Positions 18,556 through 31,096 of a stretch of 46,048 nucleotides of DNA are shown here, piece by piece. This DNA comes from Deltaproteobacteria bacterium (GTDB lineage: Bacteria > Desulfobacterota > Syntrophobacteria > Syntrophobacterales > Thermodesulforhabdaceae): assembly GCA_019309115.1 (NCBI GenBank), contig JAFDGW010000035.1, positions 1 through 46,048 on the forward strand, in the 5' to 3' direction. The stretch's first letter is position 1, and every line of letters starts with the position of its first letter. The notes under the pieces were generated by a model. The model did no database searches. It saw nothing but the letters and a program-made list of their open reading frames with translations, and had not been told where the DNA came from. A program made the translations under genes and the position numbers.

Positions 18556-18588
18556 GTCGCAAGAGGTATCGATTTTTGGAGGGCATTG

Positions 18589-18996
18589 ATGGGCAAGAAT
18601 TGGAAACTGGAGCTGATCAGTTCTGAGAAAGGCGTAACCTTGAATCTGCATGGTAAGGAAGGGACAATAGTTGAGTTGATTTCATCGGTTGAATCCTTGG
18701 ATGATTTTGAGAAAGAGTTGACGGCCCTGCGCTCTGAACTTGACAAAATGCTCAACAAAGCCAAATCACTATTTGAAGCCATGAGCTCTGGAAAGCCGCT
18801 AGATCCTCAGGAAATATGGAATATCATGAAGCAGATGTCACTTCCTGACATGCGGGATTATTTCAATTCTCTCGATGAATCGGTCAGAAGAGAAGTTGCA
18901 AACTTCATATTTTCTACCGTCAACATGTTTTCCGGGGCAGGTCCCATGTTTGCTACCTTCTACGATCCCGAAACAGCCTTACTTCTGGAGGAATAA
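18589..18996 (+). CDS. Small soluble protein of unknown function
   Basis: A 135-residue protein with no family I recognise. It starts with a short beta-rich stretch (KLELISSEKGVTLNLHGKEG), followed by a long charged helix around residues 37-65 (DDFEKELTALRSELDKMLNKA), and a C-terminal half with more helices ending in LLLEE. It has no signal peptide and no transmembrane segment. GGAGGG at 18578-18583 is ideally spaced for the ATG at 18589. It follows ttuA by 33 bases and is the last gene of this long run, so it may be functionally tied to tRNA thiolation or simply ride along. Confidence 0.72.
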   Translation: MGKNWKLELISSEKGVTLNLHGKEGTIVELISSVESLDDFEKELTALRSELDKMLNKAKSLFEAMSSGKPLDPQEIWNIMKQMSLPDMRDYFNSLDESVRREVANFIFSTVNMFSGAGPMFATFYDPETALLLEE

Positions 18997-20237: not shown

Positions 20238-21183
20238 TGTTAGCGGTTTGAGGAAACATTATCCTGTGACAGGCGGGGTATTTAGGAAAAAGATTGGAAC
20301 TGTTCGAGCGGTGGATGGGATAGACCTTTCTATATTGCGAGGTGAAGCGCTTGGGCTTGTTGGCGAAAGCGGTTGTGGTAAATCCACGCTGGGAAAGCTA
20401 TTATTACGACTTGAAACGCCTACCAGCGGAAATATTTATTTCGATGGCACGGACTTACTCAGCCTCTCGAAAGAACAGATGAAGCCTTTTCGTCGTCGTA
20501 TGCAGATTATATTTCAAGATCCTTACTCGTCTCTGAATCCCCGGCAGACCATTGGTAAGATAATTGGTGAAGGATTGGTGATTCACGGTGTTGGAACAAA
20601 AGCCGAGCGTGAAGAGCGGGTTCGAGCCATTATGGAAGTTGTTGGTCTCAGACCTGAGCACGTCAGCCGCTATCCGCACGAATTCAGCGGAGGACAACGC
20701 CAGAGAATTTGTATAGCCAGAGCGCTTATTCTTGAGCCAGATTTTGTCATCTGCGACGAACCGGTTTCAGCTCTGGACGTGTCAATTCAGGCGCAGGTGA
20801 TCAATCTTCTCCTTGACCTTCAGGAACGATACAAGTTGACATACCTGTTCATAAGTCATGATCTTTCAATAGTACGCCATGTATGCGACAGGGTTGCCGT
20901 GATGTACCTTGGAAAAATTGTCGAGCTAGCTGACAGGAGTTTAATTTTTTCAAGTCCCTGTCATCCGTACACCCAGGTATTGCTTGAAGCCGTCCCAAAG
21001 CCCGATCCCGGTCATTCGCCTAAACGACCTCACCTTAAGGGTGATTTACCAAGCCCGATTGATCCTCCGTCGGGTTGCGCTTTTCATCCTCGCTGTACCG
21101 AAGCCAAGAAAATTTGTTCGGAGGAAATTCCCAAACTTAAAGAAATCAGCCCCGGTCACTTTGTAAGATGTTTTCTTTATTGA
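20215..21183 (+). CDS. Oligo/dipeptide ABC transporter ATPase, DppF-like
   Basis: A 322-residue second ABC ATPase of the OppF/DppF group, partner of the upstream DppD-like subunit. Walker A is [10 protein letters not shown], the Q-loop is [12 protein letters not shown], the signature is [11 protein letters not shown], Walker B is [12 protein letters not shown] and the switch is [11 protein letters not shown]. The C-terminal extension [14 protein letters not shown] is kept. The heterodimer should power import of peptides or another small solute through permeases encoded elsewhere. The gene starts inside dppD and ends facing a convergent gene with a 7-bp antisense overlap. Confidence 0.92.
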
Positions 21184-21782
21184 AGGAATTTTTTGGAGTC
21201 ATAGTCAATGGGAACAATACCAGCATCTTTTAATTTCCGAGCATCTCGGCGGCTGTGAGTTTTAAGCCACCTTTCGTAAATCCGGAGAACATCTGAGTTT
21301 CTGTAGAACCCTCCTGATTCGCTTATCTGGGCAAGGAGATCCTTGACTTCCCAGAACCGCTCGCTCAACTCATCGAAAACCCTTTCGATGCCCCAGTGTA
21401 TCAGACCGTAAGCAATCAGTTGGACAAGTGTGGCGTAGGCTAGTTGACCCATTCTGCCGTAATAGTCTATGTCCACCACCTTACGCTTGAAGCTGTCTCC
21501 AAAAAAACCTGTAAGGAACAGGGCAGCATCGCCTATGGCTTGGAGTGCATGAGCTCGTTCTTCAAATCCTTTCATCTGGCTTTCTAGGTAAACCTCTGCA
21601 AAGGTCTTGTCTCTGAATAGGGGATTTTCCGCACGAACTTTCTTCATTTCGGCAAACCGAGTTAACATGTCTGCTACGTAAAATTGCGTCCACTCCGAAA
21701 CCTGCACGTTGAGCTCTTGACTTGCTTTCTCAAGCGCATCACGGAAGTACTCCATAAGACTCGAACGAACTAATCTTTTCAT
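21177..21782 (-). CDS. Conserved-looking soluble protein of unknown function
   Basis: A 201-residue, largely helical protein that I cannot assign. It has no signal peptide. A moderately hydrophobic stretch ([20 protein letters not shown], about 112-131) is flanked by charged helices and may be a buried helix or a peripheral membrane contact. AAGGGAGG sits just upstream of the ATG at 21782. A perfect 10-bp inverted repeat lies just beyond that ribosome site, suggesting its own regulation. It is the downstream gene of a short - strand pair with the L,D-transpeptidase, separated by 160 bp. Confidence 0.75.
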
Positions 21783-24519: not shown

Positions 24520-25071
24520 ATGTTTAAGCGACTTTTTGGCAGAAAGAAAAAAGAAAAGACACTGGCTTTTGATCCTACGAACCTGACTCTTGATAAGTTG
24601 CAGCCCGGCTGGTTCGTGGATTTTGATATGAAAACCTGGCGGGTTATTGCAAAGAGTCGCTATGATATGGGCGATGGGTTTGAAATGCTGGAGTGGGAAC
24701 TGGAGTCAGGCGACGAACGCAGGTTTCTCTGCCGGGAAGAAGATGACAGGGTTTACTGGACGTGGGTAAGGAAGGTTCCCGTGGGAATGATTGACCCTGG
24801 ATTGAAAGACCATATATTGAAGTATGAAGATCCGCCTGAGGAAATCGTATTTGATGGAATTACCTTTGAGATGGAAAGTTACGGGGGAGGATACTTTTAT
24901 AAAAACTGTGTTGGTCCGGGCATTCCATTTCTCTACTGGGATTACGAAAGCGAAGATGAAAGATATGTCCTCACGATAGAGCAGTGGGGAGATACTGATT
25001 TTGAAGCGGCCGCTGGCGAATACGTCGAAGAGTATCAGTTCAGTAACATATTGCCCAGTTCGGCTGGATAA
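24520..25071 (+). CDS. DUF4178-like protein
   Basis: A 183-residue soluble acidic protein. The pattern LQPGWFVDFDMKTWRVIAKS followed by EWELESGDERRFLCREED fits the DUF4178 domain (a beta-rich domain of unknown function usually found near transferred or membrane-stress genes). The second half repeats a related beta pattern. The first ~14 residues are basic (FKRLFGRKKKEK). It follows the radical SAM gene by 15 bases and is the last gene before a strong hairpin. The DUF assignment is from memory of the pattern and is moderate. Confidence 0.6.
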   Translation: MFKRLFGRKKKEKTLAFDPTNLTLDKLQPGWFVDFDMKTWRVIAKSRYDMGDGFEMLEWELESGDERRFLCREEDDRVYWTWVRKVPVGMIDPGLKDHILKYEDPPEEIVFDGITFEMESYGGGYFYKNCVGPGIPFLYWDYESEDERYVLTIEQWGDTDFEAAAGEYVEEYQFSNILPSSAG

Positions 25072-26883: not shown

Positions 26884-28224
26884 ATGGCCAGAGTTTTGCT
26901 TACCACATTGGGTACCAAAAAGTCGCTTTCCTGCAGGTATTTGCTAAATGGGCAGAAATCATCGGAAGTTGCTTATTTACAGGAAGCTCTTATCGAACTG
27001 GTTTGTAGGAACTGGGATGAAAAGGATTGCATGGTTCTTTTTTGTTCTCGAGAGGCTGAAAAAAACAATTGGAGGGATAGAAAGGATTTTGGCGAAGGGC
27101 TCCAATCCCGATTGGCGTCCCGCAAGTTGAATTTTGCCGTGAAACCGGTCTCTATTCCTGATGGAAAGAATCCGGACGAGGTTGACACCGTAATTAAAAA
27201 GATACTTGAAGCATGCCCGCAAGGAACTGAACTTTATCTGGACATTACCCATTCATCCAGAATTTTTCCGTTTCTCCAGAGTTTTCTGGTCAATTATCTA
27301 ATGTTGTTGGGCTTTGTGAAGCTAAAAGGAATTTTTTACGCATCCTATGACAGTGTCGGCGGTGTTGAAAAGCTTAGGAAGTTATCGCCAAAGGAACGGA
27401 TCATTCCGATTATTGATCTTTCCAGGTGTGCTTTTCTGCCGGACCTGGCAATAGCGGTTCGTTCTTCGCTTTTCCCTGAGGGGTTTTATAAAATGCCTGA
27501 TGCTCCAGATTTCTGGGAAAGAGGAGTGGCGGCGGCGGATCGCATTGTAAAGTCCATTTTATCTGGTGCGGTTTATTTTTCGGCAGACTGTGATGAGCTG
27601 TTAGAGGTTTCCGAAGACGATGTTATAGAAAACTTCCCTTTTGGTCCGGCCTTTTTATTCGTAAGAACCCAAATGATGCCTTTTTGCTCCCACGAAAATC
27701 CCGTCGATCGCCTTCTTTTCATGGCAAGGTGGTGTCTGGAGCATCAGCTTCTACCTCAAGCTTTTGTTTTTGCTAGAGACTTCACCCTATCCGCTGTATG
27801 TATTTTTGCCGGGAAACATGTGACCGATTTCGTATTCAAAAGGGACACCGTTGAGCCCCTTCTGTTCTGGGCTTCTGATAAAACTCCGCCGTGCAAGTTG
27901 AGGATTTTTCTGGAAAGTTATCGCCTTCTTCTTTCGGGAAGAGTGAATCTTTCAAGTGGCAGATTCAAAGAATGCTTTTCGGAATTTGTAGAGCGGGCGG
28001 AGGAACTGGCTCGGGAGAGAACTCTTACTGCCGAGCAAATTTGCCTAAAGACCCAATGTGGTCCCCATTTGAAATCTCTTGCTAACGCCTATGCTGATTT
28101 CAACCGCATGGGGAACTTACTGCTGTCGTCGCCGTATAACGCAGTCCATGTGCAGCGAGAATTCAGAGAGAGCTTTAACAAGCTTATACAAGCCGTGGAA
28201 GATTTTAGGAACTTGGTCAAATAG
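26884..28224 (+). CDS. CARF-domain protein, Csx1/Csx2-like (CRISPR-associated, orphan)
   Basis: A 446-residue protein whose N-terminus (MARVLLTTLGTKK, then YLQEALIELV and VLFCSREAEKNNW) matches the Csx1/Csx2 group. The DxTHG signature of the family appears as LDITHSS, with D120 and H123 kept and Gly replaced by Ser. Such CARF domains bind cyclic oligoadenylates made by type III CRISPR complexes and switch on a C-terminal HEPN RNase. The helical C-terminal half here aligns with the HEPN region (RWCLEHQLLPQAFVFAR), but no R-x4-6-H motif is seen at the expected late site: R408 and H422 are too far apart. RWCLEH at 282-287 fits the spacing, probably by chance. There is no cas gene or CRISPR array nearby. 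GGAGAG precedes the ATG. Confidence 0.72.
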   Translation: MARVLLTTLGTKKSLSCRYLLNGQKSSEVAYLQEALIELVCRNWDEKDCMVLFCSREAEKNNWRDRKDFGEGLQSRLASRKLNFAVKPVSIPDGKNPDEVDTVIKKILEACPQGTELYLDITHSSRIFPFLQSFLVNYLMLLGFVKLKGIFYASYDSVGGVEKLRKLSPKERIIPIIDLSRCAFLPDLAIAVRSSLFPEGFYKMPDAPDFWERGVAAADRIVKSILSGAVYFSADCDELLEVSEDDVIENFPFGPAFLFVRTQMMPFCSHENPVDRLLFMARWCLEHQLLPQAFVFARDFTLSAVCIFAGKHVTDFVFKRDTVEPLLFWASDKTPPCKLRIFLESYRLLLSGRVNLSSGRFKECFSEFVERAEELARERTLTAEQICLKTQCGPHLKSLANAYADFNRMGNLLLSSPYNAVHVQREFRESFNKLIQAVEDFRNLVK

Positions 28225-28239
28225 GGAAAGAGAATTCAG

Positions 28240-29196
28240 ATGGTTGGCATGGTAAAAGCGATAGAGGAGTTCCTGTCGCACTTGCAGGGTGAAAGGCGCA
28301 TGAGTCAGCAGACTGTTCGAGCGTATCGTTCGGACCTCTTGCAGTTTTTTAACTGGCTTGTTCGAGAAAATGGCTTCGACGGGTCAGATTTCCTTTCTTC
28401 ATCCATTACCCACCATCACATTAGGAAGTTTTTTGCCCAGCATAATTTTTCAAAGAGAACTCAAGCACGAAAACTGTCGGCACTTAAAAGTTTTTTTGCT
28501 TTCCTGGAGGATAGATATTCTTTCTCTCCCAATCCTGCAGCGGTCATGACTTCGCCCAAGCTGGGACATCAAAGCCCTCCCCATTTTGATGTGGATGAGG
28601 TTATTCACTTTCTTGACTTTCTACACAGCAAGGCATTAAAAGCGAAGGCTTCCTGGATGATTGTCAGGAATTGGGCTATTTTTGAAACCCTTTACGGATC
28701 AGGGATTAGAGTGAGCGAGTTGGTGAGACTGAATGAGATTGACATTGACACATCTGAAAAGCTTATAAGGGTAATGGGCAAGGGCGCCAGGGAACGCTAT
28801 GTTCCTGTAACTTCAGTAGCCGTGGATGCGGTTTCGAAGTATCTTTTAACTCTTCAGGCGCAAGAGCCAAAAAAGCGATTCCTATCTGATGCTCTTTTCA
28901 AAAACCGTTTTGGAAAGCGTCTTACAGAAAGGTCGGTGCATAGGATTTTGCAGAATGAATTAATGGAATGCGGTCTTTTTAAGAAAATTGGACCTCATGG
29001 CTTTCGTCATAGCTTCGCCACTCACCTTCTCAGTTCAGGAGCTGATCTCAGAGCCATTCAGGAAATGCTAGGGCACAGAAAGCTGGAAACAACACAGCGA
29101 TACACTCATCTTGACATTGATCGCCTTACTTGTGTTTACGATAAAGCCCATCCGCACAGTAAAAAGAAGCCCAGAGAAGGAGATGGTAGGAGATGA
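28240..29196 (+). CDS. xerC: Tyrosine recombinase XerC/XerD-like
   Basis: A 318-residue tyrosine recombinase expected to resolve chromosome dimers at dif. It has an N-terminal SAM-like core-binding domain (about 5-90) and a catalytic domain with Arg in GSGIRVSEL, Lys in the hairpin VMGKGARER, the [12 protein letters not shown] box, [15 protein letters not shown] and the nucleophile Tyr in the last. Starts at 28240 and 28249 are both possible. It overlaps hslV by four bases, and xerC-hslV-hslU is a common order in bacteria, which favours a housekeeping Xer role over an integrase. Confidence 0.9.
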
Positions 29197-29729
29197 GCAT
29201 CGATTTTCACAGCACCACGATTCTGGCTCTTCATACGAAGGACTCGGTGGTTATGGCCGGTGATGGTCAGGTAACACTGGGTGATACGGTGGTTAAGCAT
29301 AAAGCTCGCAAGGTTAGGCGCATGTATCACGGAAATGTTCTTGCCGGTTTTGCCGGCGCCACGGCCGATGCATTTACGCTCTTTGAGAGGCTCGAGGCAA
29401 AACTGGAACAATATAATGGCAACCTGACCAGAGCTGCTGTGGAGCTTGCTAAAGACTGGAGAACCGATAAAGTCCTGCGGCGCCTTGAGGCTATGCTGGT
29501 GGCTGCGGATCGAACAACCTGTCTTATTCTGGGTGGTAGCGGTGATGTTATCGAACCGGATGATGGGCTTGCCGCGGTTGGGTCTGGTGCTCCCTATGCT
29601 CTTGCTGCCGCCAGGGCGCTACTCAAACATTCCAACCTAAGCGCCCGGGCGATCGTCGAAGAAGCCATGAACATTGCTGCTGCTATTTGCATTTACACCA
29701 ATAGGGAATTTGTCATTGAGGAGCTATAG
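29193..29729 (+). CDS. hslV: ATP-dependent protease subunit HslV
   Basis: A 178-residue proteasome-like peptidase subunit of the HslUV (ClpQY) protease. Removal of a seven-residue propeptide (MSIDFHS) would expose the catalytic Thr, followed by [23 protein letters not shown], the family signature. Length is typical. The ATG overlaps the xerC stop and hslU follows after two bases, fitting a stoichiometric complex. Confidence 0.97.
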
Positions 29730-29731
29730 CC

Positions 29732-31096
29732 ATGGAGAAACCGTTAACCCCGGCCGAGATCGTTCGAGAACTGGACAAATACATAGTTGGGCAAAAAGAA
29801 GCCAAGCGGATGGTTGCTATTGCCCTTCGCAACCGCTGGCGAAGGCAGCAGGTGCCGGAACACCTCAGGGACGAGATAGCACCCAAAAACATCATAATGA
29901 TAGGCCCCACGGGAGTAGGAAAGACGGAAATTGCCCGAAGACTTGCCCGTTTGGCTCAGTCGCCGTTTTTGAAGGTTGAGGCGACCAAGTTCACCGAAGT
30001 TGGGTACGTGGGTCGAGATGTTGAGTCCATGATTCGGGATCTGACCGATATTGCAGTTAATATGGTGAGAGCGGAAGAGCTGGATCGTGTCAAGAGGCGA
30101 GCGGAGGAAATTGCTGAGGAAAGATTGCTAGATATTCTATTGCCGCAGTCGCGCCGAAGAGGAAAGCCGTCGCTGGTTCATAGCGAAGGTGGCGAGGCAA
30201 TTGAGGTTCAGCAGATAGATGCCACTAGGGAGAAGCTAAGAAAGTTGCTGCGTGAAGGTGCTCTTGACGAGAGATATGTGGAAATAGACGTACCCGACAA
30301 AAGCAGCCCCATGATTGAAATTTTTGCCGGGGCAGGGCTTGAAGAATTGGACTACAGCCTTCGAGAGATGCTCAGTTCCATGCTTCCCAAAAAGACTCGA
30401 AGACGAAAGGTAAAAATCCCCGAAGCTCGACAGATTTTGATCGAGGAGGAATCTCAGCGGCTGGTTGACATGGACAAGGTCATAAAGACGGCCATCGAAA
30501 GAGTGGAACACTCTGGGATTATATTCATTGACGAGATAGACAAGATAGCCGGCCGAGAGTCCACCGGTGGCCCTGATGTATCCAGAGAAGGCGTGCAAAG
30601 GGACCTACTACCCATTGTGGAAGGCTCCACAGTTATGACCAAGTACGGCATGGTCAAGACCGATCATATTCTTTTCATTGCATCCGGAGCGTTCCACATG
30701 TCGAAACCTTCAGATCTAATTCCTGAACTTCAAGGGCGTTTTCCAATAAGGGTTGAACTCAAGCCTCTTACCAAGGAAGATTTCGTCAGGATCCTTACCG
30801 AGCCTGAAAATGCGCTGATCACACAGTACAAAGCCTTGTTGGCGACAGAAGGCGTTGACCTGGTGTTTGAAGAAGAGGCGATAGAGGAAATTGCCGAGAT
30901 TGCCTTCGAAGTTAACACCCGTACGGAGAATATAGGCGCAAGAAGGCTGCACACCATCATGGAAAAACTGCTTTCTGACGTATCCTTTAACGCACCGGAG
31001 CTTCAGGGGCAAACTCTAAGAATAACAAAGCAATATGTTCGGGAAACCCTGAAGGACATAGTGGAAGATCAAGACCTGAGCCGCTACATACTGTAA
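29732..31096 (+). CDS. hslU: ATP-dependent protease ATPase subunit HslU
   Basis: A 454-residue AAA+ unfoldase that feeds substrates to HslV. Walker A is GPTGVGKT at 58-65 and is followed by [16 protein letters not shown], which carries the GYVG pore loop. The I-domain insertion spans about 110-240. Walker B is [11 protein letters not shown], and the C-terminus RYIL matches the tail that docks into HslV. The N-terminal [17 protein letters not shown] is also diagnostic. Confidence 0.97.

Follow-up and report, generated by a model that had tools for sequence, protein, structure and literature searches.

Csx1/Csx2 proteins are ancillary RNases of type III CRISPR systems, and the question raised by the locus considered here is what a protein of this type may be doing when its gene stands apart from any cas locus and the active site of its ribonuclease half has gone. 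The gene (Table 1) is in a stretch of 46,048 nucleotides, termed the window, which constitutes the entire contig C50 of a 2.51 Mb assembly (72 contigs, 96% complete). Its reading frame is intact, its start codon is ATG with GGAG eleven bases 5′, and its composition (45.0% GC, 45.9% at third positions) resembles that of the adjoining genes. The window shows no cas gene, and an earlier description of the gene as an orphan without CRISPR neighbours, in a sequence-only reading of this DNA, is borne out over the whole contig.

Table 1. Features of the orphan gene and its downstream neighbours (window coordinates)
Feature	Position	Strand	Basis or remark
CARF + pseudo-HEPN orphan gene	26884..28224	+	446 aa; ORF, PADLOC profiles, alignment, AlphaFold2
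CARF domain, residues 1-185	26884..27438	+	fold match to 8y75; kept invariant columns
CARF motif I, L9-G10-T11	26908..26916	+	alignment; kept in all three dead-HEPN members
CARF motif II, D120-I-T-H-S-S-R126	27241..27261	+	alignment; DITHS = residues 120-124
HEPN-like helical region, residues 266-446	27679..28221	+	AlphaFold2 helices; homolog profile match to 8y7g HEPN
Inserted helical segment, about residues 338-380	27895..28023	+	alignments
Former HEPN active site, G410-N-L-L-L-S415 for R-N-x-x-x-H	28111..28128	+	alignment
xerC-hslV-hslU	28240..31096	+	15 bp 3′ of orphan; xerC confirmed by domains

Identification as a Csx1/Csx2-like CARF protein, as first proposed, is supported by the PADLOC CARF-HEPN/Csx1 profiles (E values from 1e-34 to 1e-45, the best being 1.5e-45 and 3.6e-45) and by fold. 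TIGR02221 gives 38.5 bits on the orphan, under its cut-off of 76.25, and no match to the protein was obtained in Pfam, in NCBIfam above cut-off or, by single sequence, in the PDB. Structural prediction, a check that had been suggested, was performed with AlphaFold2 from 32 homologs (mean pLDDT 80), this model replacing a three-sequence one with a pLDDT of 62. Block-mean pLDDT is 93-98 for residues 1-90, and the linker, residues 188-236, is poorly predicted. Model residues 1-193 match the CARF-HTH part of Marinitoga Csx1-Crn2 (8y75_D) with a Z of 16.7 and an rmsd of 2.9 Å over 186 residues; weaker fold matches, at Z of 10-13, are to Csx1, Csm6, Can2, Card1, Csa3 and Crn1. Given this match of the predicted fold, together with the presence of motifs I and II in the alignment, the protein is assigned to the CARF superfamily. 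By sequence profile as well as by fold, Marinitoga Csx1-Crn2 (8y75, 8y7g) is the closest solved structure, with H123 of the orphan aligning with its H129 and so corresponding to a position in the cA4 pocket. The C-terminal half is predicted to be helical and HEPN-like (helices 273-286, 290-308, 394-415 and 417-445). It can be superposed on the HEPN domains of 8y7g and 8y6z only if the domains are arranged differently (rmsd about 20 Å), so that assignment as HEPN derives mainly from profile alignment. Likeness to Csx1/Csx2 (PADLOC CARF2 CARF_HEPN; TIGR02221) comprises full-length homology, the CARF fold, a helical linker and a HEPN-like helical half; the differences are the absence of the HEPN R and H, an extra insertion and a position outside a cas locus.

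The DITHS sequence is present as had been noted, but its interpretation as an odd form of the CARF signature is rejected. When 44 full-length homologs are aligned, the type III relatives read DITHS, DVTHS or DITHA, and with DxTHS/DxTHA being usual in the subfamily, type III members included, DITHS is no deviation in itself. The HEPN helix is a different matter. The alignment consists of three proteins lacking the HEPN active site (the dead-HEPN members, of which the window protein is one) and 41 others. RNxxxH is present at this helix in 41/41 of the latter and in 0/3 of the former. In the window protein the changes are R410G and H415S, which agrees with the initial remark that no HEPN R-x4-6-H could be recognised. 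The second member, from the genome termed G002 (its CARF gene being L002), has K-D-N-M-V-L there, and the third, from G003 (L087), has I-K and no H; the substitutes in the R and H columns thus differ, being G..S, K..L and I..Q respectively. An RNase function retained through displaced residues, or exerted by another site, is highly improbable: other C-terminal arginines and histidines do exist, e.g. R408 and H423, but none of the three dead members has R-x4-6-H at the helix position in the alignment, and no common substitute is seen. Compared with the Csx1/Csm6 ribonucleases, there is homology but not the catalytic R-x4-6-H, and not, in the window's genome, a detected Cas10, though Cas10 is found in G002 and G003.

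G002 and G003 represent different genera of the window's family. The orphan nests among type III Csx1 proteins in the tree, in which the three dead-HEPN copies are one clade (ultrafast bootstrap 100, SH-aLRT 98). Their branches are long (1.2-1.8), and the tree software flagged the fact that two of these, leading to the window and G003 copies, meet. In CARF-only trees from which any one dead member was omitted, the other two still pair (SH-aLRT 82, 94 and 96). In addition, an insertion of ~40 residues, placed ahead of the final HEPN helices, is confined to the three dead-HEPN members and absent from live homologs (those with the motif), and, as a shared sequence feature, it lends independent support to a single clade. 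That clade is sister to the type III Csx1 proteins of the same family, L088 of a further genome, G004, and L098 of G003 (95/80 in the full tree), a relationship that is less firm, since apart from the full tree it is recovered by one of three reduced trees. Only three members of the lineage are known, each on a long branch. In GTDB contigs, a profile of the clade matched live Csx1 proteins from Bacteroidota and the copy in G002, and nothing else. On a possible origin in phages or mobile elements, as for a phage anti-defence sponge, neither 50,697 phage records nor a pattern scan of viral contigs gave a match, distant relatives being able to escape both the search and the scan; distant matches occurred on six plasmids, five of them annotated csx2.

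Loss has not been even along the protein. Identity among the dead copies is 42-48% in CARF, with few indels, and 17-28% in the C-terminal half, the corresponding values for the live pair L088/L098 being 68% and 54%. Of 34 CARF columns nearly invariant in live homologs, 23 are kept in the window copy, 28 in that of G002 and 26 in that of G003; of 10 such HEPN columns, the numbers kept are 5, 5 and 3. From these counts and identities, the sensor half has been held and the effector half let go. D120 and R126 are present in 3/3 dead-HEPN members, and H123 in two, Y taking its place in the G002 copy. Retention in CARF is lowest in the window copy, which is compatible with weaker selection there, though with n=3 this proves nothing.

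Surroundings of the gene are of limited help. It does lie directly before xerC-hslVU, as first described, and the 15-bp gap to xerC makes a shared transcript likely; a promoter and terminator scan gave no excess over shuffles. The neighbourhood itself is not a shared one, however. Upstream of xerC-hslVU in G001, G003 and G004 are other genes and no CARF gene, and in G002 xerC is at a contig end, with its upstream gene beyond the readable sequence. The dead copy of G002 is next to uroporphyrinogen/hemC-like genes, judged by sequence, and that of G003 next to unrelated genes, with no cas gene adjoining any of the three. Since the neighbourhood differs in each genome where it is readable, a functional link to xerC-hslVU is rejected, and the association is uninformative on function. 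On the other side of the window gene, and divergent from it, is an ArsP-type permease gene (PF03773; 25190-26563), 320 bp lying between the two, and beyond it a DUF4178 protein is encoded at 24520-25071. Two further ORFs, of 201 aa at 21177-21782 (−) and 136 aa at 18586-18996 (+), are without any Pfam match.

A source of ligand was looked for as well. The initial suggestion was of a signal from a distant type III system, and the genome-wide check proposed with it yielded neither Cas10 (palm or protein) nor a RAMP protein in the window's 96% complete genome; no such system was found in that genome, while its sisters do carry type III systems. What the window's genome has instead is a type I-B set, cas6-cas8b-cas7-cas5-cas3-cas4-cas1, on its contig C1, with the cas8b match just under cut-off. 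Panoptes/mCpol and CBASS were also considered as sources and rejected, neither mCpol (PF18182) nor an SMODS cyclase (PF18144) being found in the genome, with SMODS the CD-NTase family covered by the search. By contrast, G002, G003 and G004 each have a Cas10 with GGDD and a live Csx1, and from the GGDD, cOA is presumably made in G002 and G003. In G003 (L098) and G004 (L088) the live Csx1 is within the type III operon and has a fused C-terminal Csx20 domain, which by analogy with Csx1-Crn2 would be a built-in off-switch; in G003 the dead copy is about 100 kb from the live one on the same contig.

The reading preferred here, with a probability of roughly two in five and drawing on sequence, structural models and analogy, is that the orphan is a pseudo-ribonuclease, duplicated from a type III Csx1, whose CARF domain binds cOA as a sponge or competitor. 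The family's type III Csx1 would have been duplicated, with one paralog leaving the cas locus and losing its HEPN active site while its CARF domain was kept under selection. In known relatives cOA is bound at the CARF dimer interface. A dimer of the orphan's CARF domain would similarly bind cyclic oligoadenylate, probably cA4 as in the nearest solved relative, with no RNase being switched on. With cOA so held, there would be less signal for live Csx1, or the two would compete, and the protein would be a host sponge or damper. (A variant is that it acts as a poison subunit, if the dead copy pairs with live Csx1.) The analysis itself shows the CARF fold, the missing R and H, a single origin of the three dead copies, the selective keeping of CARF, the lack of adjoining cas genes and a GGDD Cas10 in both sister genomes; binding of cOA, the identity of the ligand and the damping role are inferred. 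Several published findings are pertinent. Csx20 is a reported cA4-specific ring nuclease family (PMC12409355), and its fusion to L088 and L098 points to cA4. Changing H129 in the DxTHG motif of Marinitoga Csx1-Crn2 to W abolishes its cA4-activated RNase (PMC7293037). PfCsx15, likewise an orphan CARF-fold protein, inhibits an RNase that cA4 activates, its proposed action being to sequester cA4 (PMC13148439). Csx15 is a stand-alone protein of CARF type, whereas the window protein derives from an effector, still carries the inactive HEPN half and is a putative sponge. The difficulties are also evident. Type III systems make much cOA and sponging could be ineffective (PMC13148439). With no cOA-making enzyme found in the window's genome, a sponge there would be without anything to bind, and the lower count of retained CARF columns in this copy is as relaxed selection predicts. 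In that genome the protein may persist as a damper for mobile type III systems that are gained and lost over time, or it may have begun to drift; it may be a relic there, or a reader of another nucleotide.

The sequence-only reading had offered a ring nuclease, a sponge or a response to a non-CRISPR signal, and among these the sponge is the best fit. With a ring nuclease, the CARF domain would slowly cleave cOA, and so provide an off-switch, the dead HEPN half merely supporting the dimer. A HEPN mutant of EiCsm6 does still partly degrade cA6 via its CARF domain, T11 being needed (PMC7101355), and L9-G10-T11 is kept in 3/3 dead copies. Nevertheless, Marinitoga Csx1-Crn2 combines an active RNase driven by cA4 with a ring nuclease, Crn2, fused to it, neither of which the orphan has; cA4 is degraded by the Crn2 part, and mutation of its H495 stopped the degradation (PMC7293037). 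The live L088 and L098 also bear a fused ring nuclease family, and with both fusions in mind this type of CARF is seemingly not self-limiting. The Crn1 proteins Sso2081 and Sis0455 have the CARF fold in common with the orphan (Z about 11), but their G-T-S and G-R/x-K motifs (PMC10018336) are not present as such, L-G-T-K-K and D-I-T-H-S-S-R being the counterparts. Cleavage by the orphan is accordingly quite unlikely.

A non-CRISPR signal has a modest chance of being what the CARF domain reads, with the HEPN-like half then binding RNA or a protein partner. Few cases of non-CRISPR signals for CARF domains are known, to our knowledge. RtcR is a CARF protein with such a signal (PMC7790460). Pertinent in the window's genome is the failure to find Cas10, RAMP, mCpol or SMODS there, yet the frame and its GGAG have persisted. 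Set against this are the coexistence of the two sister members with type III systems, the low identity of the C-terminal halves, such that a common partner is not evident, and the lack of conserved neighbour genes. A bolder version, with a small chance of being correct, is of a chromosomal CARF receptor freed from CRISPR, a former Csx1 effector retained for the sake of its ligand-binding domain and sensing a cellular nucleotide in a genome without a known cOA polymerase.

It is unlikely, too, that the gene is simply a leftover Csx1 in decay after loss of its own system. Such a relic would account for the lack of a detected type III system in the window's genome, the disparate residues at the old active site, the fast divergence of the C-terminal half and the length of the branches. 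It sits poorly with a full-length frame kept in three genera and with the identity and few indels of CARF, and as a live paralog is also present in G003 and G002, the dead copy there is a separate lineage rather than the result of mere loss of a locus.

CARF, Csx1 and orphan CARF sponges are each already known. The literature searched, the main CARF classification aside, contains no description of a HEPN-dead, cas-free lineage of Csx1 paralogs; no claim to priority is made. The known host brakes on cOA signalling are ring nucleases and, recently, the small sponge Csx15. If the sponge reading is true, disarming the duplicate of an effector would be a novel means of making such a brake; in G003, the live (L098) and dead (L087) copies are a pair suited to a direct competition test. 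Should the window protein bind a ligand other than cOA, it could lead to a signal outside CRISPR that CARF domains read.

Other CRISPR-related and nucleotide-related features were encountered in these genomes. The type I-B locus of the window's genome (L072, G000:C1, 1-11744) has an array of at least 35 repeats of GTTTCAATTCCTCATAGGTAGGCTCGCAAT, which may extend further, since the contig starts within it or immediately ahead of it. A lone copy of this repeat, with 3 mismatches, is present in G003 (L123, G003:C1:740653-740682) and may be a piece of a related array or a single repeat. G002, which has one of the dead Csx1 copies, encodes an SMODS nucleotidyltransferase (L085, G002:C227:246-737; PF18144, E 1.2e-27), a possible CBASS locus and a further source of cyclic nucleotide in that genome.
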